The notes beneath the pieces were generated by a model. That model was not told the DNA's origin, made no database searches, and was given only the letters and a program-made list of their open reading frames with translations. Positions 13,470 to 36,706 of a stretch of 36,807 nt of DNA are shown here, piece by piece. The position numbers were made by a program, and so were the translations under genes. The stretch comes from a virus. The number at the start of each line of letters is the position of its first letter. Positions within the stretch are counted from its first letter, which is position 1. The DNA is taken from positions 1-36,807 of IMG/VR virus record IMGVR_UViG_3300044692_000005. One strand, written 5' to 3'.

Positions 13470-14387
13470 ATGGCTACCAATTCTGCCGCAGCGACCACTG
13501 GCGGACCTGGTGGCATACAAACGGCCGCTAGCAAGCAGCTTAACGTACACAATATGTTCGACCCCAATAGCGCATGGGCGAACGGCACAATCACCTACGG
13601 CAACCCGAGCGTATCTGGCTATCAGGCGGCCAACTCGACTAGCTACGGCTCAGACCCGTCGCACGTCAATATAGACCCTAGCATCCTGAACTCGATGCAG
13701 CAGTACCAGGATGCTGCGTATCAGAACCAGGTATCGCGCCTTGATCCGCAATGGCAGCAGCAGCAAAACGCGTTTGACCAGCAGATGGTCGCGCAGGGCC
13801 TGCAGCCAGGCAGCCAAGCCTATAACAACGCCTATCAGAACTTCATGATGGGCAAGAACGACGCGTATAGTCAGGCGTACAACAACTCGTTCCAGACGGG
13901 ATTGGCAGCTCAGGGACAAGCCTTTAATCAGGGCTACGAGAACTCGCAGCTCGCCAATGCCCTTGCTGTCGCCGATCGCCAAAAAGCGGCCACAATCGGC
14001 GCAGCTGGCATCAACGCCAATGCGAGCATGCACAACGCGGACGCGGCTAATGCGACGAATCAGTTGCTGGGTCTAGGAAATTTAGGGCTCGGCTACGGCA
14101 ATTTGCAAAACCAGATGAACCAGCAGGACTTGCAAAACCTGCTTGGCATCTCTGGCCTGATTAACGGCAACCAGCAATACAACAACAGCCTCATCGGCGG
14201 TGCGCAAAACACGCTGTTCGGCTTGGTACCTAATAGCAACCCAACCCCGATCGATGTGACCGGCGCATACGGGCTCAATCAGAGCGGACAGAACGCCGCT
14301 TATCAAGGGCAGCTAGCCAGTTCCAACGCACAGAATCAGATGCTTGGCGAATTAGGCACGGCGGCCATGATGATGATGTTCATGTGA
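13470..14387 (+). CDS. Asn/Gln-rich ejection-type protein
   Basis: 305 residues, starting directly after the previous stop. Very rich in Asn, Gln, Ala and Tyr (for example LDPQWQQQQNAFDQQMVAQG and SQAYNNAYQNFM), with a central coiled-coil-like region of repeated NQxY/AF units and a C-terminal run of five methionines. Typical of podovirus internal proteins that leave the head with the DNA. Precise role unknown. Confidence 0.65.
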   Translation: MATNSAAATTGGPGGIQTAASKQLNVHNMFDPNSAWANGTITYGNPSVSGYQAANSTSYGSDPSHVNIDPSILNSMQQYQDAAYQNQVSRLDPQWQQQQNAFDQQMVAQGLQPGSQAYNNAYQNFMMGKNDAYSQAYNNSFQTGLAAQGQAFNQGYENSQLANALAVADRQKAATIGAAGINANASMHNADAANATNQLLGLGNLGLGYGNLQNQMNQQDLQNLLGISGLINGNQQYNNSLIGGAQNTLFGLVPNSNPTPIDVTGAYGLNQSGQNAAYQGQLASSNAQNQMLGELGTAAMMMMFM

Positions 14388-21521: not shown

Positions 21522-22167
21522 GTGCGGCTTCCTCGCGCCGGATAGCTATTTCGGCAATCAGGATCAAAACGTTCTCCAGATCGTTGCTTTGGCCCAAGCG
21601 GTTGCGCTGGAGTCTGTCGAGGAAAAATGGCAGCAATTGACCAAGATCAGCACGCTATCGCTGACTTCCTCGCAGACGTATCCGCTGCCGAGTGATTTCC
21701 TGTCCTTCACGCCAGACACGATGTATCAGCAGGGGCGATTCGATTCCGTCGATTTGCCAACCGAGCCTGAAGTATGGGCGCTTCTGACCTCCGTTGCTTC
21801 GGTCGCCTCATTGCCTGTCCGCGCGAGGATCTATGGCGGCCAACTGCACATCCTCAATCCGCAGTCAGGCGCAACGATTACCTACGAATACAACTCCAAT
21901 GCGCCGATCACAGATGCCACGGGTGCAACCGCAAAAACACAGTTCACTGCTGACACAGACATTTGGCTGCTCGATGACCGCATGTTCCAACTGGAACTGA
22001 AATGGCGGTTCAAGAAAGAGAAGGGCCTTGATTTCACGGCCGATCTGCAGAACGCGTCCAACCGCCGTGCCTCCGTGCGCTCACGCGAAAATCCAGGCCA
22101 GGTCATCGCCCTGCCTCGTCTGATGTGGCGCAAGGAGCCGTACGCCGATCTGTGGGCGCATAGCTGA
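21478..22167 (+). CDS. head-tail adaptor (P22 gp4-like tail accessory)
   Basis: 229 residues from the GTG at 21478. The helical N-terminus (VLQIVALAQAVALESVEEKW) followed by QLTKISTLSLTSSQTYPLPSDF and LPVRARIYGGQLHILNP matches tail-accessory proteins of the P22 gp4-like group. These dock below the portal and keep DNA in the head. Located between capsid and tail genes; the last base overlaps the next ATG. Confidence 0.7.
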   Translation: MSQTLAQNANQVLAECGFLAPDSYFGNQDQNVLQIVALAQAVALESVEEKWQQLTKISTLSLTSSQTYPLPSDFLSFTPDTMYQQGRFDSVDLPTEPEVWALLTSVASVASLPVRARIYGGQLHILNPQSGATITYEYNSNAPITDATGATAKTQFTADTDIWLLDDRMFQLELKWRFKKEKGLDFTADLQNASNRRASVRSRENPGQVIALPRLMWRKEPYADLWAHS

Positions 22168-24005
22168 TGCCGACCGTCTCCGTACCCGCCCCCATCGGGG
22201 GCTGGAATGCGCGCGATCCGCTCGACTCCATGCCGCCGACCGATGCGATCTCGCTCGTCAATTGGTTCCCTCAGGCTGGCGCTGTCTATGGGCGCGGCGG
22301 CTCGCTGACCAAAGTGAGCTTGGGCACGCTCAGCAACGTCGATACGCTTGTCCCGTTTACCAGCTCCAGCGGCAGCGCCATCCTCGCCGCATCGGGGGGG
22401 AAGATATTTGCCGTTGACCCTGTTGCCGCAACGAGCACCCAAAAAGGAACTGGTTTCAGCGTCAACAACTGGCAATACGGCATGTACAACAACAAGGCCG
22501 TGCTGGTGAATGGCACTGACCTGCCGCAGGTGTATGACGGTTCGACGCTATCGGCTATCGTTGCCAATGCGGCGCCCGTCACGATTTCCAGTGTGGTCAA
22601 TGCGGGCGGCGGAACGATAGGCGCAGGCCTGCACGGCTATCGCGTCTCTGCGGTAATCGGCGGCAAGGAGGGTATCCCCTCCAACGAAGTCACCGTCACC
22701 AATACGGCAAGTCAGAAGAACACAATTACCTGGTCGCTGCCGAACGGCTCTGTTCCGGTCGATAACTTCAAGGTTTACGGAAGAACATCGGGCGGCGAGC
22801 TGCTGATAGCCACAGTCAGCGGCACGACGTTCTCGTACGTGGATGACGGCTCGATCACTCCGTCCGGCGCAATGCCTTCCAGCGATGCAACTCCAGCGCT
22901 GTTCATCGGCACGGTGAACATGAAGGGCAGGGCCTTATATTGGTCTGCGGCTCAGTGCGGGTTCTGGTATGCGTCTGCCGGTGCGTTCCAGGGCGCATTG
23001 TTCTATTTCCCGCTGGACTATGTATTCCGCGAGGGCGGCGCCGTCTCGTTGATTACCACTTGGTCGCGCGATAACGGCGACGGCGTGGACGACATGACAG
23101 CCATCATTTCGTCGAATGGCGAATGCCTGGTTTATCAGGGCAACGATCCGTCCAGTGCGCTCGCATGGCAGATGGTGGGCCGTTTCCACATCGGTGTCCC
23201 ACTTTCGATCCGCGCAGTAACCAAAGTCGGCTCCGCGGCAATTGTCGTCACTAATGACGGCGCACAATCTCTGGATGAGGCCATTGCCAATCAGCAGACG
23301 CAGGACTCATCCTCGTTCGGCGGCAAGGTCATCCGCGCATTCAATATCGCGACAACGATCTACAGGAGCAATTTCGGCTGGGACTGCACGTTCTACCCGC
23401 GCGGATCGATGTTCATTGCGAACATTCCGATCAATGCGACGCAGTTTGAGCAGTATGTCAGGAACACGGATACCGGAGCCTGGTGCCGCTTCACCGGATG
23501 GAATGCCCGCTCCATGTGCGTGTTCAACACGCGCCTGTATTTCGGCACGACAACGGGGGCGATCGTTCTTGCCGATACCAACAGCTACGACCAGAACTAT
23601 GGCTTCGGAGACGATGGCAATCCAGTCCTGAAGGATGCACAGCAAGCCTACATGCGCTTCACGCAGCCTGGCATGAAGTCGCAGATCACGGCAGTACAGC
23701 TCGTCACGAATATGTACAAGCCGACGAAGGCAAGCATCAACTTCTTTGCCGACTACGCCACGCGCGCATTGCCCAATGTTTCTGCGGCCGACAGTTTTCC
23801 GGCTACGTATTGGGATCAGTCGTTATGGGACACGTTCTATTGGGGCGACCCTGACGATGACCCGCTGAACCAGAACGCGCGGCCCACGCGCCATTCGGTC
23901 ATGGGGTATGGCTTCGCGCTATCGCTTTCCTTCCGATACAACCACAAGAAGCAGCTTCTTGTCTGGTACTCGACCAACTACGAATTTAAGCAGGCAGGTG
24001 TCTAA
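22167..24005 (+). CDS. tail-stem/packaged-DNA stabilisation-type protein
   Basis: 612 residues. The N-terminal motif VSVPAPIGGWNARDPLDSMP plus LVNWFPQAGAVYGRGGS marks a family found next to podovirus adaptors. Repeated beta-hairpins (TISSVVNAGGGTIGAGLHGY, KVYGRTSGGELLIATVSGTT) suggest a beta-propeller plus Ig-like domain. By position it should form the tail stem or needle hub, like P22 gp10. Its stop overlaps the next ATG. Confidence 0.65.
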   Translation: MPTVSVPAPIGGWNARDPLDSMPPTDAISLVNWFPQAGAVYGRGGSLTKVSLGTLSNVDTLVPFTSSSGSAILAASGGKIFAVDPVAATSTQKGTGFSVNNWQYGMYNNKAVLVNGTDLPQVYDGSTLSAIVANAAPVTISSVVNAGGGTIGAGLHGYRVSAVIGGKEGIPSNEVTVTNTASQKNTITWSLPNGSVPVDNFKVYGRTSGGELLIATVSGTTFSYVDDGSITPSGAMPSSDATPALFIGTVNMKGRALYWSAAQCGFWYASAGAFQGALFYFPLDYVFREGGAVSLITTWSRDNGDGVDDMTAIISSNGECLVYQGNDPSSALAWQMVGRFHIGVPLSIRAVTKVGSAAIVVTNDGAQSLDEAIANQQTQDSSSFGGKVIRAFNIATTIYRSNFGWDCTFYPRGSMFIANIPINATQFEQYVRNTDTGAWCRFTGWNARSMCVFNTRLYFGTTTGAIVLADTNSYDQNYGFGDDGNPVLKDAQQAYMRFTQPGMKSQITAVQLVTNMYKPTKASINFFADYATRALPNVSAADSFPATYWDQSLWDTFYWGDPDDDPLNQNARPTRHSVMGYGFALSLSFRYNHKKQLLVWYSTNYEFKQAGV

Positions 24006-26339: not shown

Positions 26340-26378
26340 TTAGGAGGGGGACGCTCTATCCAACTGAGCTACGGGGCC
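26340..26378 (-). other. 5' half of tRNA-Arg(CCT), att core
   Basis: On the minus strand, from 26378 leftward, the bases read as acceptor GGCCCCG, TA, D-arm GCTC/GAGC, G, anticodon 5' strand TCCCC and loop CTCCTAA with anticodon CCT. After the loop the sequence should be GGGGA but is AATTC, so the tRNA likeness stops at the end of the anticodon loop. The first tRNA base (26378) is also the last base of the int stop codon. Not a functional tRNA gene by itself. Confidence 0.8.
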
Positions 26379-27367
26379 TATGCGGTTTTCCGGCGTTTTC
26401 TTGGTTTGGCTGTGCTAGTTTTTGTGCTAGTCCAGCGCGCAAGTGTGCTAATCGCATCTCGCCCAAACCCGGGGGCGTGATGGGCGTAACGTTCCGTTAC
26501 CGTAATAGAGCTATGCCCAGCCAAACGCTTGACCTCGTGCAAGGATACACCGGACTGCACAAGCGCCGTACAGAACGTGTGACGCAGCCAGTGCAGCGTT
26601 CCTCGCTCGGTCTCTGCTGAGAACCAGTCACTAAGTGTGTCAGGGTGCACGTCTACCAGCTTGTCCTTGCCTAGCTTCTTCAGTGCCCGATTTGCCGCCG
26701 GGTTAAGCGGTATCGCGCGCCATCGCGCATTCTTGGTTCTCCCCTCGGGCAACGACTCAACATAGAGCATCTTGTCGCGCACGTCCTGCCTGCGCGCCTT
26801 CGCCATCTCGCCGCGCCTGATCCCCGTATTCCACATGAACTGCCAAATAGCTCCGTGTTCCGCGCGGGCCAGCTTACGTAATTGATTAGGTTGAAAATAT
26901 TCTGGCGCGCGGCTGGTTACTGACTTTGGGATCGTCACGCCATCCATCGGAGAGTGCTTTATGCGGCGCTGAGATAGGGCACGTCGAAAGGCGGCCCTCG
27001 CGAGCTTCAATGCTTTCTCTGCTTGGCCTAGCGCCTTTTCCTGAGATACCCAGCGCTCTATGGAGCTGGGGTGCAAGCCTTCTGCTGATTCGTCATCGAA
27101 TCGCGCTCTGAATCGTTTTAGCGCGCTGTGGGCGCGCTTATAGGTAGTAGGCCTGGCCTTCTCGTACCATTCTTCGTAATCTTTGAGAATAGAGCCGACC
27201 GTTACACCACGCGTGGGTGTAATCAGCCCGCGCAGTTCTGCAATCTTTTCAGTAAGACGGCTTTCCGCTTCTCGCTTCTCAACCTTCCCAAGAGACGTTC
27301 GGAACTGCTGTCCGCCATCGTACCAGTTGAGGTAATAGGCGTCGCCGCGTTTGTAGAGCGTTGCCAC
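26378..27367 (-). CDS. int: tyrosine recombinase integrase
   Basis: 329 residues. N-terminal arm-binding domain (TLYKRGDAYYLNWYDGGQQF), core-binding domain at about 52-140, and a catalytic domain with Arg184, Lys212, His259-x2-Arg262 (HWLRHTF), His285 (LAGHSS) and the nucleophile Tyr294 (TERYAHHAP). A basic tail follows (TSTKTSTAKPRKRRKTA); its TST/TSTA codons coincide with two arm-type sites. The stop codon abuts the att core. Transcribed toward attP. The start overlaps the upstream xis gene by 145 nt. Confidence 0.95.
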   Translation of the reverse strand: MATLYKRGDAYYLNWYDGGQQFRTSLGKVEKREAESRLTEKIAELRGLITPTRGVTVGSILKDYEEWYEKARPTTYKRAHSALKRFRARFDDESAEGLHPSSIERWVSQEKALGQAEKALKLARAAFRRALSQRRIKHSPMDGVTIPKSVTSRAPEYFQPNQLRKLARAEHGAIWQFMWNTGIRRGEMAKARRQDVRDKMLYVESLPEGRTKNARWRAIPLNPAANRALKKLGKDKLVDVHPDTLSDWFSAETERGTLHWLRHTFCTALVQSGVSLHEVKRLAGHSSITVTERYAHHAPGFGRDAISTLARWTSTKTSTAKPRKRRKTA

Positions 27368-27524: not shown

Positions 27525-27887
27525 CTAATCCCCGCCATACGGCGTCATCGGAGGCTTAAGCAGCCGGCTCCAGTGCGTAAGTCCGACTGCTTTTAGCCCA
27601 TCCACGCAGCGCGCTTCTATAAATTCACCATTGTGCCAACGGCAGATGTTTACCTCATGCCCGTTCCAGGATATGAATGCGGCATCATGGGGCGCCGTTT
27701 CGATCGGCCTCCACTCATTCGCCAGATCAACCACGTCCTGTCTTGATCCAGCAGCAACAATCAGCCCACCCCCGATAGGTACAGAGAACGCCTCGCTACC
27801 CATGTGCTGAAACAGGTTGAGCGCTGCCAGCTTGAGATCGTTCTCCAACTGCTCGCGGCGTTTGTTCCATATGTCGTCCATTTTCAT
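27525..27887 (-). CDS. DUF551-domain protein
   Basis: 120 residues from the ATG at 27887, with AAGGA upstream. The frame is open further upstream, but those codons shadow the next gene. The C-terminal half has the DUF551 signature EWRPIETAPHDAAFISWNGH with GLTHWSRLLKPP at the end. The N-terminal half is a charged helix plus FSVPIGGGLIVAAG. Common in phage accessory regions, function unknown. A second, minimal member lies at 32815-33009. Confidence 0.7.
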   Translation of the reverse strand: MKMDDIWNKRREQLENDLKLAALNLFQHMGSEAFSVPIGGGLIVAAGSRQDVVDLANEWRPIETAPHDAAFISWNGHEVNICRWHNGEFIEARCVDGLKAVGLTHWSRLLKPPMTPYGGD

Positions 27888-28177
27888 GGGTCCTTTTTTG
27901 GTGAAGCGCGAACAGCCTCTGCCTCGTGGCGTGGCGTTGCTAAGTTTTGGTTCGACACCGTAGAGGCGATTGTGCGCACTACTTCTGCATCCTTTGCGAT
28001 TACTTCGCGCCAGCCTCGAATCGTCCATTTGTTGTAGTGCATGCGCTGCTTTCTTGGCGTCCATTCCTGCCATTCGACATGCGTATAGGTCACAGCAATG
28101 ACCTTGATCGGAATACGTGAGCGCGTCTGAACGATTTCGTCGCCGGCGCATGGGTTGATTCTTGGGTCACGTATCAC
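27884..28177 (-). CDS. cassette A/B gene, unknown
   Basis: 97 residues from the GTG at 28177 with an AAGGAG site. Contains VIAVTYTHVEWQEWTPRKQR and RGWREVIAKDAEVV; the C-terminal LATPRHEAEAVRASP is encoded by repeat A. It is enclosed by repeat B at its 5' end and repeat A at its 3' end, which are inverted relative to each other. Overlaps the next gene by 4 nt. Function unknown. Confidence 0.6.
   Translation of the reverse strand: MIRDPRINPCAGDEIVQTRSRIPIKVIAVTYTHVEWQEWTPRKQRMHYNKWTIRGWREVIAKDAEVVRTIASTVSNQNLATPRHEAEAVRASPKKDP
27901..27944 (+). repeat. boundary repeat A (plus orientation)
   Basis: GTGAAGCGCGAAC, a variable middle, then GTGGCGTTGCTAAG. Sits at the 3' end of the A/B gene and is translated there. 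Inverted partner: repeat B. Confidence 0.8.
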
Positions 28178-28193
28178 GCCACATCTCCTTCCG

Positions 28194-28237
28194 TTAGTAA
28201 CGCCACATCATCACTCCTGAAGATTTTCGCGCTTCAT
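28194..28237 (-). repeat. boundary repeat B (minus orientation)
   Basis: On the minus strand reads ATGAAGCGCGAAA, a middle with CAGGAG, then GTGGCGTTACTAA, followed by CGGAAGGAGATG and the start of the A/B gene. The extension CGGAAGGAGATG is shared with repeat I. Confidence 0.8.
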
Positions 28238-28351
28238 CCGCAAGAGCGGATAACGACAACTTATCCCCTCCCAGGTATTCACCGCACAATCTGCGGAGAA
28301 AGAGGTGTTTAATCTCCGCATGTCACACAAGCACAACATATAGACGGTCAT
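28211..28351 (-). CDS. 46-residue Cys-rich small ORF
   Basis: Starts at an ATGA overlap with the upstream gene at 28348. Its TGA overlaps a further ATG (TGATG). Cys-rich (YMLCLCDM, ADCAV, ISCRY), ending RMKRENLQE, which is encoded by repeat B. It fills an otherwise empty 170-bp stretch. Coupling suggests it is translated, but no family is recognised. Confidence 0.45.
   Translation of the reverse strand: MTVYMLCLCDMRRLNTSFSADCAVNTWEGISCRYPLLRMKRENLQE
28292..28320. repeat. 8-bp inverted repeat
   Basis: TGCGGAGA (28292-28299) and TCTCCGCA (28313-28320) with a 13-bp spacer, inside the small ORF at 28211-28351. Could be an operator or an RNA hairpin; no direct evidence of function. Confidence 0.35.
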
Positions 28352-29109
28352 GTAGCGCATGTATTACCCGCAGCGATGGCGGCGTCTATTGCTTCGCGCA
28401 CTGTTTTGCCTCGGCCAATTTCTTCCCACTCGCGGTCATTGACCGGCCCGTGAATGTTCCAGACCTTCCAGAGAAATTCTTCCTCATCCTCGTCATATGC
28501 GTAGACGACTTCGTTGATCTCTGAATCCTCAAGCCAATCCAACCTAGCCGCATCCACCGCATCCCGCTCACCGGACGCAGGCCAGACGGATTGGAGGGCG
28601 GCACGCATACACTGAGCATTGTGCGATCCGACATGGATGCCGCTGGGCGGCAACGCATCCTTGCATTCCAATTTTGCCGTCAGGTATGCAGCCGTTGCTT
28701 TGCGGACAGCCTCATCCGTCACCCGCGCTGTCGTCTCGCCTTGACCAAGAACAGCAGCCAAAGCCTTTTCCAAGTCGATAACGAACACCGGAGAGATAGG
28801 GTCTTCCCAATTCTCTTTTAGGATGGCAACGAGTTTTTGAGAAAGTTCTCTATATCGTAGGCTGGCTACGACAGGTGTCGTCGCATCCTGCGCAGCGATA
28901 GGCTCGAAGTTATCCGCAAAATACTTGGCGGCGATCAACCATTGGTCATCGTGGTTTGCCGGATTGCGCGCGATCATGTCACCCGCTTTCGGCGAACCGG
29001 CATCACGATCTGCCGTCGATATGCTGACGCGACCAGATAATGTTTCACCTTCGACATACGGACGAAGCTCGGCAATCTGGCTACGACGGTATTGTTGGAA
29101 CTCGCTCAT
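28348..29109 (-). CDS. acidic phage protein, unknown
   Basis: 253 residues from the ATG at 29109, ATGA-coupled to the 45-residue zinc-ribbon gene. The N-terminal third is SEFQQYRRSQIAELRPYVEG; the middle part is helical (LRYRELSQKLVAILKENWED); the C-terminus is acidic (YAYDEDEEEFLWKVWNIHG), then an Ala-rich helix. The layout resembles composite phage proteins with a variable N-terminus and a conserved small C-terminal module. Function unknown. Confidence 0.65.
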   Translation of the reverse strand: MSEFQQYRRSQIAELRPYVEGETLSGRVSISTADRDAGSPKAGDMIARNPANHDDQWLIAAKYFADNFEPIAAQDATTPVVASLRYRELSQKLVAILKENWEDPISPVFVIDLEKALAAVLGQGETTARVTDEAVRKATAAYLTAKLECKDALPPSGIHVGSHNAQCMRAALQSVWPASGERDAVDAARLDWLEDSEINEVVYAYDEDEEEFLWKVWNIHGPVNDREWEEIGRGKTVREAIDAAIAAGNTCAT

Positions 29110-29243
29110 TTCCATTTCTCCTGCGCAGCAAGCCACATCAATCCGCACTTTTGGCAATGGTAAAAACCTCGCCCAGTTTCAGCGCAGAAATAGTCTAGGA
29201 GTGCCGGACGAGGATGGAACAGCGAACACCATAAGCGTTTCAT
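29106..29243 (-). CDS. 45-residue zinc-ribbon protein
   Basis: Small gene between two ATGA overlaps. Sequence features KRLWCSLFHPRP, YFCAETGRGFYHCQKCG and LMWLAAQEKWK; Cys6, Cys20, Cys31 and Cys34 can form one zinc site. I recognise this kind of short zinc-ribbon protein from other phage accessory regions, with no assigned role. Its last codons carry the GCTGCGCAGGAGAAA linker repeat. Confidence 0.65.
   Translation of the reverse strand: MKRLWCSLFHPRPALLDYFCAETGRGFYHCQKCGLMWLAAQEKWK
29115..29129 (-). repeat. linker repeat L1
   Basis: Minus strand GCTGCGCAGGAGAAA, encoding AAQEK at the C-terminus of the zinc-ribbon protein and supplying AGGAG for the gene starting at 29109. Identical 15-mer at 29249-29263. 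Confidence 0.7.
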
Positions 29244-30247
29244 CTAGCTTTCTCCTGCGCAGCGCAATCCATGTGAAGTTCGCCAGCACATCCGCATTTC
29301 TCCGCTGGTGCGACGCGGGCGGCTAGGAACCGCTCCAGCAAATTCCTCATTTCTGGTCGGTACTGCTTGAAATCGAAATCGATGTCGTTGATGACATGAT
29401 TTCCATACCAATCAACGAGTGCTACATCAACTTCTTCCTCGCTCACCCCCTCGCGCGGTGCCGTGGCTGGGGTGGCCGCTTCCAAACGTCGCTTCAAGTT
29501 GTAATCCATGCGGACGCCAATGCCATCCCTCATCGTCGGAACGTAATCGTCATCCCGCGCAGGTGCAGCGGGTGCGGGCGACTCCGAAGGCGTAGACGGC
29601 GTGGCCGGTGGGGCGGCTCGCATGTGCGCTTGAACGGCGCGAACGATTCGCAGCACGTAGTCGTTGTCCGGTTCCAGTTTCGTCGCGATATAGTCGTCGT
29701 AGCAGTCCAGCAAGAATTGCCGAATCGTGCGATCCCCCATCGAACCCCAATAAGCTGTCCACGCTTTGCCGTAGCACCACACAACCAACTCGCCGCGACC
29801 TGGTTGAAAATCGCGCATGATGTACGTGATCGGGTCCAGTCCTTTCGATGCCGGAATCTGATGCAGCACCACCTCCCCCTCGCCGCTGACGGCGGGGCTG
29901 GCGAGCAGGGCGGCTAATTCCTTGCTGCGTTTCAGAATCGAGGACGGCAACCAAAGATTGCCGGGGCCATCATGTTCCAACAATGCAGCCAGCAATGACT
30001 CTTTCGAGTGAACCGAAATATCCGAAAGCTCATCACTCGTGCGTTTCTGTTCTAGCGCCGCCGCCAGTGCGCGTGTGTCCTCTTGCGGGTGGCTGGCGAG
30101 CAGGGCGGCGGCTTCCAGCATCGCGCGTTGTGATTCTTCGATGCAGTTTAGACCGTAGCTGGACAGCCCATCCTTGGACATGACGTCGAAAGAATGTGCG
30201 CGAAACTTAAGCCGTTCCGCCAGTGCGCGTGTGGATTCGGTGGTCAT
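29240..30247 (-). CDS. large accessory protein, unknown
   Basis: 335 residues. Helical N-terminal part (TRALAERLKFRAHSFDVMSK, with a second related ALAAALEQK stretch), a central compact domain (VVWCYGKAWTAYWGSMGDRT), a Pro/Ala-rich linker (about residues 215-232) and a C-terminal helical domain ending CGCAGELHMDCAAQEKAR. The N-terminal DTRALAAALE-type segment recurs in phage proteins of variable function. Coupled on both sides by ATGA. Function unknown. Confidence 0.65.
   Translation of the reverse strand: MTTESTRALAERLKFRAHSFDVMSKDGLSSYGLNCIEESQRAMLEAAALLASHPQEDTRALAAALEQKRTSDELSDISVHSKESLLAALLEHDGPGNLWLPSSILKRSKELAALLASPAVSGEGEVVLHQIPASKGLDPITYIMRDFQPGRGELVVWCYGKAWTAYWGSMGDRTIRQFLLDCYDDYIATKLEPDNDYVLRIVRAVQAHMRAAPPATPSTPSESPAPAAPARDDDYVPTMRDGIGVRMDYNLKRRLEAATPATAPREGVSEEEVDVALVDWYGNHVINDIDFDFKQYRPEMRNLLERFLAARVAPAEKCGCAGELHMDCAAQEKAR
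29249..29263 (-). repeat. linker repeat L2
   Basis: The same 15-mer as L1, encoding AAQEK at the C-terminus of the 335-residue protein and supplying AGGAG for the 45-residue gene starting at 29243. Confidence 0.7.
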
Positions 30248-30420
30248 GGCTGTATCTGTTTTAGCTTTTCGATGTATTTGTCGCGTGCCGTAGCGGTGCG
30301 AAAGAATTTCGGCTTACCGTTCTCGGCAAGCAAAAACCACCTACCTTCAAAATAAATGCTAATTCCCATGCGGGTTTTGCCAGTCTTGATGTTTGCCAAG
30401 TTATTTGCGCGAGCTTTCAT
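30244..30420 (-). CDS. 58-residue basic protein, unknown
   Basis: ATG at 30420 with AAAGGA upstream; ATGA overlaps on both sides. Contains strands GKTRMGISIYFEGRWFLLAENG and a basic helix (TARDKYIEKLKQIQP), possibly a small nucleic-acid-binding fold. No family recognised. Confidence 0.6.
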   Translation of the reverse strand: MKARANNLANIKTGKTRMGISIYFEGRWFLLAENGKPKFFRTATARDKYIEKLKQIQP

Positions 30421-30617
30421 CTAAAATCCTTTTCGCCATTAATCGCATTGTTGATTACATACCTGAGCCTGTTTTCCTCCTCGCCAAACCAAGTAAATTT
30501 TTTTTCTCGCAAAGTAACCAATGCATGCCTAGCCTGATTCTCCCAGCCAGGGGTACCTATAGATATTGCGTATTCGTTCAAAGCGTTTTGCAATTCCTGA
30601 GCGGATGGCTCGTTCAT
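30417..30617 (-). CDS. 66-residue protein, unknown
   Basis: ATGA-coupled on both sides. Helical, with aromatic residues (KKFTWFGEEENRLRYVINNA). Acidic at the N-terminus. Function unknown. Confidence 0.6.
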   Translation of the reverse strand: MNEPSAQELQNALNEYAISIGTPGWENQARHALVTLREKKFTWFGEEENRLRYVINNAINGEKDFR

Positions 30618-30685
30618 TTCGCCTCCTTCGCCTGCGCGGCGGTGCGGTCACGCGTTGGCAGGACGCGCCTAGATTCGGTGCTCAT
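30614..30685 (-). CDS. 23-residue coupled micro-ORF
   Basis: ATG at 30685 overlaps the stop of the upstream gene and its own TGA overlaps the ATG at 30617. It encodes STESRRVLPTRDRTAAQAKE and carries GCGAAGGAGGCGAA, a strong ribosome-binding site for the next gene. Probably a translational relay; peptide function doubtful. Confidence 0.45.
   Translation of the reverse strand: MSTESRRVLPTRDRTAAQAKEAK
30633..30651 (-). repeat. linker repeat L3
   Basis: Plus-strand TGCGCGGCGGTGCGGTCAC, 18 of 19 bases identical to 30904-30922. On the minus strand it encodes RTAAQ at the end of the 23-residue ORF. Confidence 0.7.
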
Positions 30686-30885
30686 GGCTTGCTCCGATCA
30701 ATCTTTTGTGATTCAAGTTCGAGTCGATCCGCTTCGCGCTCAGCCTGTGCGCGCCGCTTGTAATATTTGCTTACAACCGCCTCTCGATTCCAACCAAGAT
30801 TGGTTGATTCGATGCGATCAACTACGTACCAATAGCGGCCATCGTCTAGTTGCTCGCCTTGTACGTAGTAGCGAGATTCGCTCAT
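30682..30885 (-). CDS. 67-residue protein, unknown
   Basis: ATGA-coupled at both ends. Two strands (YYVQGEQLDDGRYWYVVDRI) then a charged helix (YKRRAQAEREADRLELESQK). Small phage accessory protein of unknown function. Confidence 0.6.
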   Translation of the reverse strand: MSESRYYVQGEQLDDGRYWYVVDRIESTNLGWNREAVVSKYYKRRAQAEREADRLELESQKIDRSKP

Positions 30886-31067
30886 TCCCTCTCTCCCGTT
30901 TGCTGCGCGGCGGTGCGCTCACAAAATAATCTTCGTATGTTATCTTCCGCGTCCTTTCGCCTATCCGTGGCTTGGCGATAGTAAGCACCGTTACCTCTCT
31001 CCCTAATTTCGTTGTGCGCGCAATCAACAAGTTCAGCAATCAATTGTTCTAATCGCGCATTAGCCAT
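30882..31067 (-). CDS. 61-residue helical protein, unknown
   Basis: ATG at 31067 (GTG 31073 is an alternative), with GGAGG about 9 nt upstream. Helical (RLEQLIAELVDCAHNEIRER and RRKDAEDNIRRLF), ending CERTAAQQTGERE, which carries linker repeat L4 and the ribosome-binding site for the next gene. Unknown function. Confidence 0.6.
   Translation of the reverse strand: MANARLEQLIAELVDCAHNEIRERGNGAYYRQATDRRKDAEDNIRRLFCERTAAQQTGERE
30904..30922 (-). repeat. linker repeat L4
   Basis: Plus-strand TGCGCGGCGGTGCGCTCAC, near-identical to L3; encodes RTAAQ at the C-terminus of the 61-residue protein. Confidence 0.7.
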
Positions 31068-31266
31068 TGCCACCCTCCTTCCGTTCCTGCGTCATCGCAT
31101 CGGATGGGGCGGGGCGTATTGTGCGAAAGTCGATCTTCGTTATTTCGCCATCCGGATAGATGCCATGAGAAAATACCCATTTAGCATCGTCACGGTCTTC
31201 GGCGTCACATTCGACATCCATAATAAGTCCACACTTACAACGCGCCTTCGCAACGTACTTGGCCAT
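31060..31266 (-). CDS. 68-residue Cys-rich protein, unknown
   Basis: ATG at 31266 overlaps the upstream TGA by one base. CKCGLIMDVECDAEDRDDA gives three Cys and an acidic stretch, a possible small zinc or metal site, followed by IYPDGEITKIDFRTI. Unknown function. Confidence 0.6.
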   Translation of the reverse strand: MAKYVAKARCKCGLIMDVECDAEDRDDAKWVFSHGIYPDGEITKIDFRTIRPAPSDAMTQERKEGGNG

Positions 31267-31955
31267 CACACACCACCCTCTGCCGCGCTAGCGTTCTGTT
31301 CCGATGTGGCGGTGAGAATGGCGTCAAGCTCACGCGCAAACTGCATTGCCATCGCGCACGCATCGTTATCGCACGCGGCGCCATAGTTGATGGCTGCGTT
31401 CATCTTCCGCTCGCGAAGTTCAGCAATGCCTTCCCGCGCCTGCGTCAGCGCCTTGTCCTTCTGCACAATCTCCAGCGCAGCGATGCGGTTGAGGTCGTTG
31501 GCTTCCTTCAACGCGGCTTGCAATGCCTCGACTTTGTCTTTTTCCTTCTCCAACAACGTTTGCGCTTTCAGAGATTTCACTTCCTTAAGTTCAATCTCAC
31601 GCGCATAGAAGCGGACAAGGTCGTTAGCGTCGGTTAGTTGCGACTCCAACTGCTCGGCATTGCGCGACATCGTTTCGATGATCTCGCCTGCGTTGGCGAT
31701 GGCTTGGTCCTTCTCGGCTAATTCGGCTCGAGCCTCCTTCACGGCATCAAACACGCTTTGCGATCCGCCGCCGTCGTAGCAGCGCGCCTGCAATGCGGCG
31801 TGTGCCTCACGTTCAGCAGCCAGTTCGGCGCGGAGTTTTCGTATTTCGGCAGCGGCGCTTTCTGGCTGATTGGCTAACTGCCATTCCGCACGCCGCTCGG
31901 CGTTGAATTGCGCAGCACGCGCTTGCACGTCGTATAGATCGATCTCATCAGCCAT
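31266..31955 (-). CDS. coiled-coil protein
   Basis: 229 residues, almost entirely coiled coil (IRKLRAELAAEREAHAALQA, EKEKDKVEALQAALKEAND, IAELRERKMNAAIN). A short C-terminal part contains NYGAACDNDACAMAMQFARE with two Cys. Overlaps the neighbouring gene by 8 nt. Phages often carry such proteins in accessory regions; role unknown. Confidence 0.65.
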   Translation of the reverse strand: MADEIDLYDVQARAAQFNAERRAEWQLANQPESAAAEIRKLRAELAAEREAHAALQARCYDGGGSQSVFDAVKEARAELAEKDQAIANAGEIIETMSRNAEQLESQLTDANDLVRFYAREIELKEVKSLKAQTLLEKEKDKVEALQAALKEANDLNRIAALEIVQKDKALTQAREGIAELRERKMNAAINYGAACDNDACAMAMQFARELDAILTATSEQNASAAEGGV

Positions 31956-32097: not shown

Positions 32098-32494
32098 GAT
32101 CGGCTCCTTTGGCGCTAGTGGATGAAGCGCGAACATCATCCAGCGTGGAGCGTGGTGTTCCTAAGAAGCCATCCAATGAGGCGAGGGTTTTGAGCATGAA
32201 ACTGTTAGCCGTGTCGAAATTGATTGGCAGATACGCAATCACGTCTCGATCAAACGTCAGTGAATCAAACTCGCCTTGGTATTGCTCGATCTCTTCGCTC
32301 CATCCAAAGCGATGCACCATGCCATTATCGTCAGCGTCTTCGCAGTCTTCGTTGAAGAAGTCGTAGTGCCCGTAGCTACATAAGGCGACTGGTAGCATCC
32401 CGCGCCCATTCGTGTAGATGGCCATGTAAAGCCCGGGCTCAGGATTTCCATCGCGCGCAACAATTTTCCAAGAGTCGGTATTTAGTAACGCCAC
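32090..32494 (-). CDS. cassette C/D gene, unknown
   Basis: 134 residues from the GTG at 32494, which has CAGGAG six bases upstream, inside repeat D. An in-frame ATG at 32524 (MKREHHQENN-) is an alternative that would make repeat D coding. Features: KIVARDGNPEPGLYMAIYTN, GHYDFFNEDCEDADDNG (acidic) and a C-terminus GFLGTPRSTLDDVRASS encoded by repeat C. Enclosed by inverted repeats D and C. Function unknown. Confidence 0.6.
   Translation of the reverse strand: MALLNTDSWKIVARDGNPEPGLYMAIYTNGRGMLPVALCSYGHYDFFNEDCEDADDNGMVHRFGWSEEIEQYQGEFDSLTFDRDVIAYLPINFDTANSFMLKTLASLDGFLGTPRSTLDDVRASSTSAKGADHG
32122..32165 (+). repeat. boundary repeat C (plus orientation)
   Basis: ATGAAGCGCGAAC, middle ATCATCC..., then GTGGTGTTCCTAAG. 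In the 3' end of the C/D gene. Shares GATGAAGCGCGAACATCATC exactly with its partner D. Confidence 0.75.
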
Positions 32495-33024: not shown

Positions 33025-33084
33025 TCAATGGGAAAAGCGCGAACATCCGAGATTTTGGGAACGTGGCGTTGCTAAGTCGCTCAT
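33025..33084 (-). CDS. 19-residue ORF reading through repeat G
   Basis: ATG at 33084 overlaps the TGA of the cassette gene (ATGA). Translates repeat G as SDLATPRSQNLGCSRFSH. The LATPR start matches peptides encoded by repeats A and J. Possibly a relay to the DUF551 gene. Confidence 0.35.
   Translation of the reverse strand: MSDLATPRSQNLGCSRFSH
33032..33076 (+). repeat. boundary repeat G (plus orientation)
   Basis: AAAGCGCGAAC, ATCCGAGATTTTGGGAAC, GTGGCGTTGCTAAG, directly after the G/F gene. The middle is identical to repeat I on the other strand nearly 2.9 kb away. Confidence 0.85.
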
Positions 33085-33461
33085 TTGCTTGCCTGAGAGG
33101 ACGCCTTCTTGCGACGCGCGTAGCGCGTTCCATCCCAGTCAACGACACCCGTTTCGATCAGCTTGCGAATAACGCGAGCTGCATGCGCGGTGGAGTATTT
33201 GCGCTCATCGAAATCAGGCGGCTCAAAAAGCCGGTTCGCAGTCGTCCAATGAAGGTCAAGAATGCGCCATGCGGGATCGGAACACTGCTCTTCGGCGAAT
33301 TTTTCCTCTTTCGTGCCGAAGAACTGGATTGCGGCGCCCGCAATGCAACATGTTGTGCCGCAAGTTCCAACGTTCTTCATATCAAAGCCAATAACGCCCT
33401 TTTTGTGCGGGGCACCAGCCTCAAGCCAGCGAGCAATCGCAGCCAAACGTCTCTTGTTCAT
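33081..33461 (-). CDS. cassette G/F gene, conserved-looking unknown
   Basis: 126 residues from the ATG at 33461 (GTG 33464 is an alternative). Helical start RRLAAIARWLEAGAPHKKG, a Cys-rich core VGTCGTTCCIAGAAIQFFG, then an aromatic, basic C-terminal half. The dense Cys/Gly core suggests a metal- or cofactor-binding site, but I do not recognise an enzyme family. Lies between inverted repeats F (5') and G (3'). Confidence 0.65.
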   Translation of the reverse strand: MNKRRLAAIARWLEAGAPHKKGVIGFDMKNVGTCGTTCCIAGAAIQFFGTKEEKFAEEQCSDPAWRILDLHWTTANRLFEPPDFDERKYSTAHAARVIRKLIETGVVDWDGTRYARRKKASSQASK

Positions 33462-33480
33462 CACGCTACCTCTGAGTTAT

Positions 33481-33524
33481 TTAGTAACGCCACGCTTCGT
33501 CAATCTCTGCTGTTCGCGCTTCTC
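33481..33524 (-). repeat. boundary repeat F (minus orientation)
   Basis: Minus strand AGAAGCGCGAAC, AGCAGAGATTGACGAAGC, GTGGCGTTACTAA, then the short leader of the G/F gene. Confidence 0.8.
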
Positions 33525-35897: not shown

Positions 35898-35942
35898 TTA
35901 GTAACGCCACGTTCCCAAAATCTCGGATGTTCGCGCTTCTCA
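35898..35942 (-). repeat. boundary repeat I (minus orientation)
   Basis: Minus strand GTGAGAAGCGCGAAC, ATCCGAGATTTTGGGAAC, GTGGCGTTACTAA, followed by CGGAAGGAGATG as in repeat B. Lies exactly between the upstream stop and the H/I gene. Confidence 0.85.
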
Positions 35943-36581: not shown

Positions 36582-36706
36582 GGCATAAGTCCTTTCAGTA
36601 TTTCGTCCTTCACGCAGAACGCGAGTAGTGCGGTAAGGGCGAGAAGAAGTTGGGTGAAGCGCGAAACGCCTCTGTGTTGTTGGCGTGGCGTTGCTAAGGG
36701 AGTCAT
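36578..36706 (-). CDS. 42-residue single-pass membrane peptide starting in repeat J
   Basis: ATG at 36706 overlaps the upstream TGA. Residues 1-18 (TPLATPRQQHRGVSRFT) are encoded by repeat J, followed by a transmembrane helix (LLLALTALLAFCV) and a short tail. Like the gene at 35495, its start has been supplied by the repeat. Unknown function. Confidence 0.5.
   Translation of the reverse strand: MTPLATPRQQHRGVSRFTQLLLALTALLAFCVKDEILKGLMP
36654..36698 (+). repeat. boundary repeat J (plus orientation)
   Basis: GTGAAGCGCGAAA, CGCCTCTGTGTTGTTGGC, GTGGCGTTGCTAAG. Follows the partial gene at the window end. If the pattern holds, a minus-oriented partner lies beyond 36807 at the 5' end of that gene. 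Confidence 0.8.

Follow-up and report, generated by a model that had tools for sequence, protein, structure and literature searches.

Two short direct repeats at gene ends in a phage operon may record the gain or loss of small gene units

The window analysed here, a virus record of 36,807 bases taken as a whole, carries the genes and repeats listed in Table 1. The N-terminal ~75 residues of the 253-aa protein (MSEFQQYRRSQ...) belong to a widespread family of small phage proteins, and the 45-aa protein had no match in PHROGs, Pfam or phage tblastn. No promoter-like site was detected in 28300-31300, and the one terminator-like site there lies outside all repeats. The 23-aa ORF begins like the 335-aa gene (49-nt repeat D5) and ends like the 61-aa gene (20-nt repeat D20); it is a probable remnant. 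A PADLOC search returned a match to Cas11e (E 0.0029).

Table 1. Positions of the genes and repeats discussed in the text, in window coordinates unless a locus is named.
Feature	Position	Strand	Remarks
Operon of small genes	~36.8 to 27.4 kb	-	Many joints are 4-base ATGA or GTGA overlaps
Integrase gene	26378-27367
253-aa gene	28348..29109	-	Follows R1 copy b; start ATG at 29109
45-aa gene	29106..29243	-	ORF; unit bracketed by R1
335-aa gene	29240..30247	-	Residues 133-194 match phrog_3451 (unknown function)
66-aa gene	30417..30617	-	ORF downstream of R2 copy b; strong ribosome-binding site
23-aa ORF, MSTESRRVLPTRDRTAAQAKEAK	30614..30685	-	D5 (49 nt) plus D20 (20 nt)
67-aa gene	30682..30885	-	ORF inside the R2-bracketed unit; weak phrog_6938 match, E 0.0013
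61-aa gene	30882..31067	-	ORF; C-terminus RTAAQQTGERE; strong ribosome-binding site
R1 copy b, GCTGCGCAGGAGAAA	29115..29129	-	3' end of 45-aa gene (LAAQEKWK); exact match to copy a
R1 copy a, GCTGCGCAGGAGAAA	29249..29263	-	3' end of 335-aa gene (CAAQEKAR); exact match to copy b
R2 copy b	30632..30651	-	3' part of 23-aa ORF (RTAAQAKEAK); 14 nt before ATG at 30617
R2 copy a	30903..30922	-	3' part of 61-aa gene (RTAAQQTGERE); 17 nt before ATG at 30885
Internal repeat, first copy (TRALAER)	30217..30233	-	Exact 17-mer
Internal repeat, second copy (TRALAAA)	30061..30077	-	Exact 17-mer; spacing 156 = 52 codons, same phase
Internal repeat, first copy (AALLASHP)	30091..30109	-	Exact 19-mer
Internal repeat, second copy (AALLASPA)	29896..29914	-	Exact 19-mer; spacing 195 = 65 codons, same phase
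GTGGCGTTRCTAA, three of seven exact copies	27931-27943, 33063-33075, 36685-36697	+
GTGGCGTTRCTAA, four of seven exact copies	28194-28206, 32482-32494, 33481-33493, 35898-35910	-
71-aa gene cassette	L057:5000, L062:5000, L065:2989		Loci in other phages

A preliminary description of this DNA had reported an identical minus-strand 15-mer at two gene ends, and this was confirmed without a mismatch. We call this repeat R1; its copies are spaced by 134 nt, and a search of the whole record allowing at most one mismatch returned these two copies. Copy b contains an AGGAG ribosome-binding site for the 253-aa gene, and copy a contains that of the 45-aa gene. At both genes R1 ends 5 nt before the start and AGGAG stands 8 nt before it, with R1 reaching 7 nt further upstream than AGGAG. 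When the unit bracketed by R1 was removed in silico, the 335-aa protein kept its length, ended in CAAQEKWK and overlapped the next ATGA.

The second repeat, R2, had been given as an 18/19 match at 30633-30651 and 30904-30922, which is the same as our 19/20 match (15 exact, spacing 271) but one base shorter. The proposal that the linker carries the ribosome-binding site of the next gene proved true of R1 but not of R2, whose 20-mer stops 14 and 17 nt short of the start codon and leaves a purine-rich ribosome-binding site outside the repeat at both copies. Removal of the R2-bracketed unit in silico turned the 61-aa gene into one of 60 aa that ends in RTAAQAKEAK and overlaps the next ATGA. All four encoded ends (LAAQEKWK, CAAQEKAR, RTAAQAKEAK and RTAAQQTGERE) are present, and the next gene starts with ATGA each time. 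Three of them end genes of 335, 45 and 61 aa, but RTAAQAKEAK closes a mere 23-aa ORF, so that the count of four gene ends stands only in part.

Two further exact direct repeats lie inside the 335-aa gene, and neither contains a start signal. The N-terminal part of the protein (window 29876-30247) forms an internal A-B-A-B repeat, with TRALA ... AALLAS occurring twice; the edges of this repeat are conserved in the DNA and the middles are unlike, and no match to the region was found in phages or plasmids. All four repeats keep the reading phase, and at the junctions both copies of each pair are read as C-termini.

R1 and R2 exceed chance. Chance would mean that GC-rich, alanine-rich gene ends and a common AGGAG ribosome-binding site had together produced look-alikes, and it is true that AGGAGAAA alone makes up half of R1 and that the two repeats were chosen after the sequence had been read. 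Random segments from the same region gave one pair of at least 15 nt in 25/518 sets, a harsh null given that the region holds the real repeats, but two pairs together in 0/518. Moreover, in other phages (126 locus-strands, 2,099 junction pairs) no pair shared at least 15 nt, the maximum being 13, and triplet-shuffled junctions reached 15 nt in 0/478 sets. The whole window holds six exact direct repeats of at least 13 nt spaced 20-600 nt, four of them within 29115-30922; triplet shuffles yielded a mean of 0.5 such repeats per window and 0.01 for that stretch, and reached four in 0/300. Chance is thus very unlikely. With a stricter setting (exact, at least 15 nt, spaced 60-400 nt) the window has four direct repeats, all within the same stretch. 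Since four or more such repeats were also present in 6/105 other loci, many of them as tandem arrays, repeat clusters are not unique to the window.

The preliminary description had treated the four gene ends as one linker family. The part common to R1 and R2 amounts to ~9 nt (GCYGCGCAG), and of 300 shuffles 2, 2, 27 and 208 reached the local alignment scores between the two repeats, which stand at shuffle level or close to it, whereas none reached the scores within each pair (0/300). The four-member family was accordingly rejected in favour of two separate direct-repeat pairs. That the genes themselves are unrelated was borne out. Ordinary paralogy would require the four proteins to have related C-terminal domains, and an AAQ near the C-terminus is indeed common to all of them, but BLASTP with short words found only AAQEK and (D/E)RTAAQ in common within pairs. 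Outside the repeat cores, same-diagonal identity drops to 20-28%, giving sharp edges. Because the edges are sharp and the proteins share just 5-6 residues, neither paralogy, which we regard as barely credible, nor a long tandem duplication that later decayed accounts for the repeats, and both were rejected.

We searched for the linkers outside this phage. In the viral_contigs collection, GCTGCGCAGGAGAAA followed by ATGA within 8 nt occurred in three stretches, compared with seven for a scrambled control encoding the same residues, and in 0/3 did it form a C-terminus: in L116 and L117 it comes after a stop codon, and in L115 the frame continues through the ATG. The R2 20-mer was absent from viral_contigs. 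Upstream of homologues of the N-terminal domain of the 253-aa protein, the R1 linker was found at 0/100 loci (one contig counted twice, as L003 and L091), and the 12-mer GCTGCGCAGGAG was limited, among 151 loci, to the window's own two copies and the three pattern-match loci. The earlier suggestion of a linker shared at the ends of unrelated phage genes therefore failed, and a widespread phage linker was rejected for these exact sequences. As far as the collections searched show, both linkers appear to be private to this phage lineage.

In further genome sets, the linker-plus-ATGA pattern was found in 0/398 genomes. Short DNA matches occurred in 11/398; of the ten inspected, most fell in signal peptides of the AALLAS type or in coding sequence of an ordinary kind, and we set these aside as coincidental. 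The 335-aa protein was matched, over partial length only, in 0/2, 0/385, 2/398 and 14/298 genomes of four sets. A search for near relatives gave no match in phages for 16.8 kb or 7.9 kb of the window, and the 335-aa and 612-aa proteins led to none in viral_contigs. A Burkholderia cenocepacia record encodes a protein homologous to the 612-aa one (window 22167-24005) at 28% identity. The structural region of the same record is partly collinear with the window by tblastx, at a distance too great for a comparison of junctions. These sequence similarities hint at a Burkholderiales host.

Another repeated sequence is present in the window. The 13-mer GTGGCGTTRCTAA has seven exact copies, and with at most two mismatches 10 were found against 1.4 expected. 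The genes at 27884-28177 and 33081-33464 are each bracketed by oppositely oriented copies. This is probably the first linker family of the preliminary description.

Repeats at gene starts recur in other phages. We surveyed 105 other phage loci (959,330 bases), and in this set, picked mainly for an MSEFQ-type gene, an exonuclease or the searched pattern and so not a random sample, with some near-duplicates (L010/L011, L068/L071), both copies lay at the starts of different genes for 23 of 75 short direct repeats, compared with 1.2 expected from random placement; members of dense arrays and low-complexity repeats had been left out of this count beforehand. A repeat of at least 14 nt stood upstream of two or more starts in 12 locus-strands, with 24 pairs in all (mean of 20 shuffles, 0.05 pairs). 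One instructive set is AAACAACAAGAACAATG, found 31 times with at most two mismatches across records L048, L057, L062 and L065, the reversed pattern being found 0 times; the proteins behind these start-codon linkers are mostly unrelated. Elsewhere, parts of AACCTCTTTCAAGGAACTCCCCATG are common to three starts in one contig (L003:13185-13440 and 13707-13725), a palindrome-like TTTGAGCTAAAGCTCAAA is repeated 18-23 nt before two starts (L089:5213 and 5529), and other private start-associated repeats bracket single small genes in L010/L011, L066, L084 and L111.

Three of the records with AAACAACAAGAACAATG (L057, L062 and L065) share a 71-aa homologue of the 253-aa gene family, with 93-97% protein identity. 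In all three comparisons, DNA similarity of this cassette (~248 bp) begins in the linker ~20 nt before the ATG and stops in the next linker, ~228-240 nt on, and ~400 nt beyond either side is at random level. In L048 the linker is missing to the left of the homologous gene, and the border falls 1 nt before the start. More generally, among 113 locus pairs with genes at least 78% identical and 200 nt of flank on each side, both flanks were unrelated in 35, which reduce to 22 contrasts after clustering and, the comparison being ungapped, may include a few shifted relatives (L038/L042/L044/L058). Of these 35 pairs, 33 have the left border no more than 21 nt from the start, and all 35 have the right border no more than 21 nt from the stop. 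These alignments suggest that the small gene of the 253-aa family often moves by itself, with the borders at its two edges, whether or not a linker is visible. The cassette-bearing phages are AT-rich and distant from the window phage, and their A-rich linker may in part be a translation signal.

The closest parallel to R1 and R2 comes from mycobacteriophages. The adjacent genes 67 and 68 of Island3 have a common 3' end of ~50-60 bp, encoding 18 residues. In Brujita one recombinant copy is present, and the authors conclude that the two copies had recombined, which they give as the first case of this kind in mycobacteriophages (Pope et al. 2011, PMC3029335). Similarly, the 335-aa and 45-aa genes are adjacent and unrelated and have C-terminal residues (AAQEK) and DNA in common, and loss of the unit at R1 or R2 would leave, as in Island3 and Brujita, an intact upstream gene and the next start. 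R1 and R2 are shorter, at 15-20 bp and 5-6 residues, a difference of degree only that nevertheless weakens membership. Furthermore, for Island3 a near-identical relative, Brujita, shows the single-copy state, whereas for R1 and R2 no close relative was found in the collections searched. The small-gene units at R1 and R2 are best read as a new, small example of the Island3/Brujita-type process already described.

A second comparison bears on function. According to Pope et al. 2011 (PMC3203893), the start-associated sequence (SAS) of cluster K mycobacteriophages is the 13-bp GGGATAGGAGCCC, which contains AGGAG, has 11-19 copies per genome and lies mostly where >50 bp separates genes, in the non-structural region. 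R1, but not R2, likewise holds AGGAG within a few nt of the starts of unrelated genes. It differs in sequence (GCTGCGCAGGAGAAA, not GGGATAGGAGCCC), has two copies and sits at a 4-bp gene overlap. It is conceivable that R1 is, like the SAS, a start-associated regulatory element acting in translation initiation or coupling with no role in exchange; the identical AGGAG spacing at both starts, the 7 nt of extra identity upstream and the recurrence of start-associated repeats in other phages would all fit. We nonetheless consider this improbable, since the whole record has two copies of R1 against the 11-19 per genome described for the SAS in PMC3203893, R2 and both internal repeats are without a start signal, and the region is free of promoter-like sites.

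Two other systems share features with R1 and R2. Boundary sequences, described as conserved, have been proposed to explain phage mosaicism (refs 21 and 22 cited in PMC3029335). Like these, R1 and R2 would provide short homology at gene borders as a site of exchange, but unlike them they were not found in the other phages searched. Mobile elements of T4-type phages offer the other comparison: R1 and R2 too are repeated elements that may be tied to single-gene shuffling, but they lie in coding sequence at gene overlaps, with 0 promoter-like sites and a terminator-like site that is not in a repeat. Those elements, the mobile regulatory cassettes or PeSL attributed to Arbiol and colleagues in 2010, reportedly sit between genes, mediate single-gene shuffling and consist of an early promoter plus stem-loop elements.

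In our reading, to which we assign a probability of roughly 0.55, R1 and R2 are short direct repeats without relation to each other, and they most likely record the gain or loss of small units across short homology. Each brackets a small-gene unit at gene edges (134 and 271 bp), and the units would enter or leave by recombination between the short repeat copies. With the repeat at the 3' end and in phase, the upstream C-terminus and the downstream start would be unharmed, and R1 would also bring a ribosome-binding site. The same kind of event, here inside a coding frame, would account for both internal repeats of the 335-aa gene. We infer recombination across R1 and R2, as well as its direction and the enzyme. 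By analogy, the private start repeats of other phages and the one mobile cassette lend support to such exchange over short homology. Efficient RecA-type recombination, for its part, needs more than 15-20 bases, which counts against recombination at R1 and R2. The idea of linker-mediated gene shuffling put forward in the preliminary description is upheld to the extent that removal of each unit leaves the upstream gene, ribosome-binding site and start intact, but not as regards a linker shared by many phages.

The repeats could instead have arisen by slippage or template switching in 1.8 kb of repeat-prone DNA, in which case their gene-end positions would be incidental and no cassette would have been exchanged. 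It is true that two of the four repeats share a single gene and that the four form a cluster; against this, the edges are sharp with nothing else copied, the copies of R1 and of R2 agree in phase and gene-end position, and the repeats of other phages stand at gene starts far above the placement expectation. We judge local duplication of this kind rather unlikely.

More tentatively, many phage lineages may each keep a private start-codon linker, repeated before unrelated small accessory genes, that serves as a recombination address, with single genes moving from phage to phage as start-to-start cassettes. On this view the AAACAACAAGAACAATG set in L048, L057, L062 and L065 would be a mature case, and R1 and R2 a GC-rich one that is either young or in decay. 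In the literature searched, which covered few subscription journals, we found no account of start linkers that are private to a lineage and form the borders of cassettes.

Short boundary sequences have not been seen at most phage mosaic borders, according to PMC3029335, and single-gene swaps have for this reason often been ascribed to homology-independent recombination. Our survey suggests that start-associated repeats are more frequent than the isolated examples would lead one to expect, yet lineage-specific, which, if true, would explain why they have been missed. The window itself is one modest case. Repeats that carry a gene end together with the next start signal would offer a simple and safe route for swaps in packed operons.
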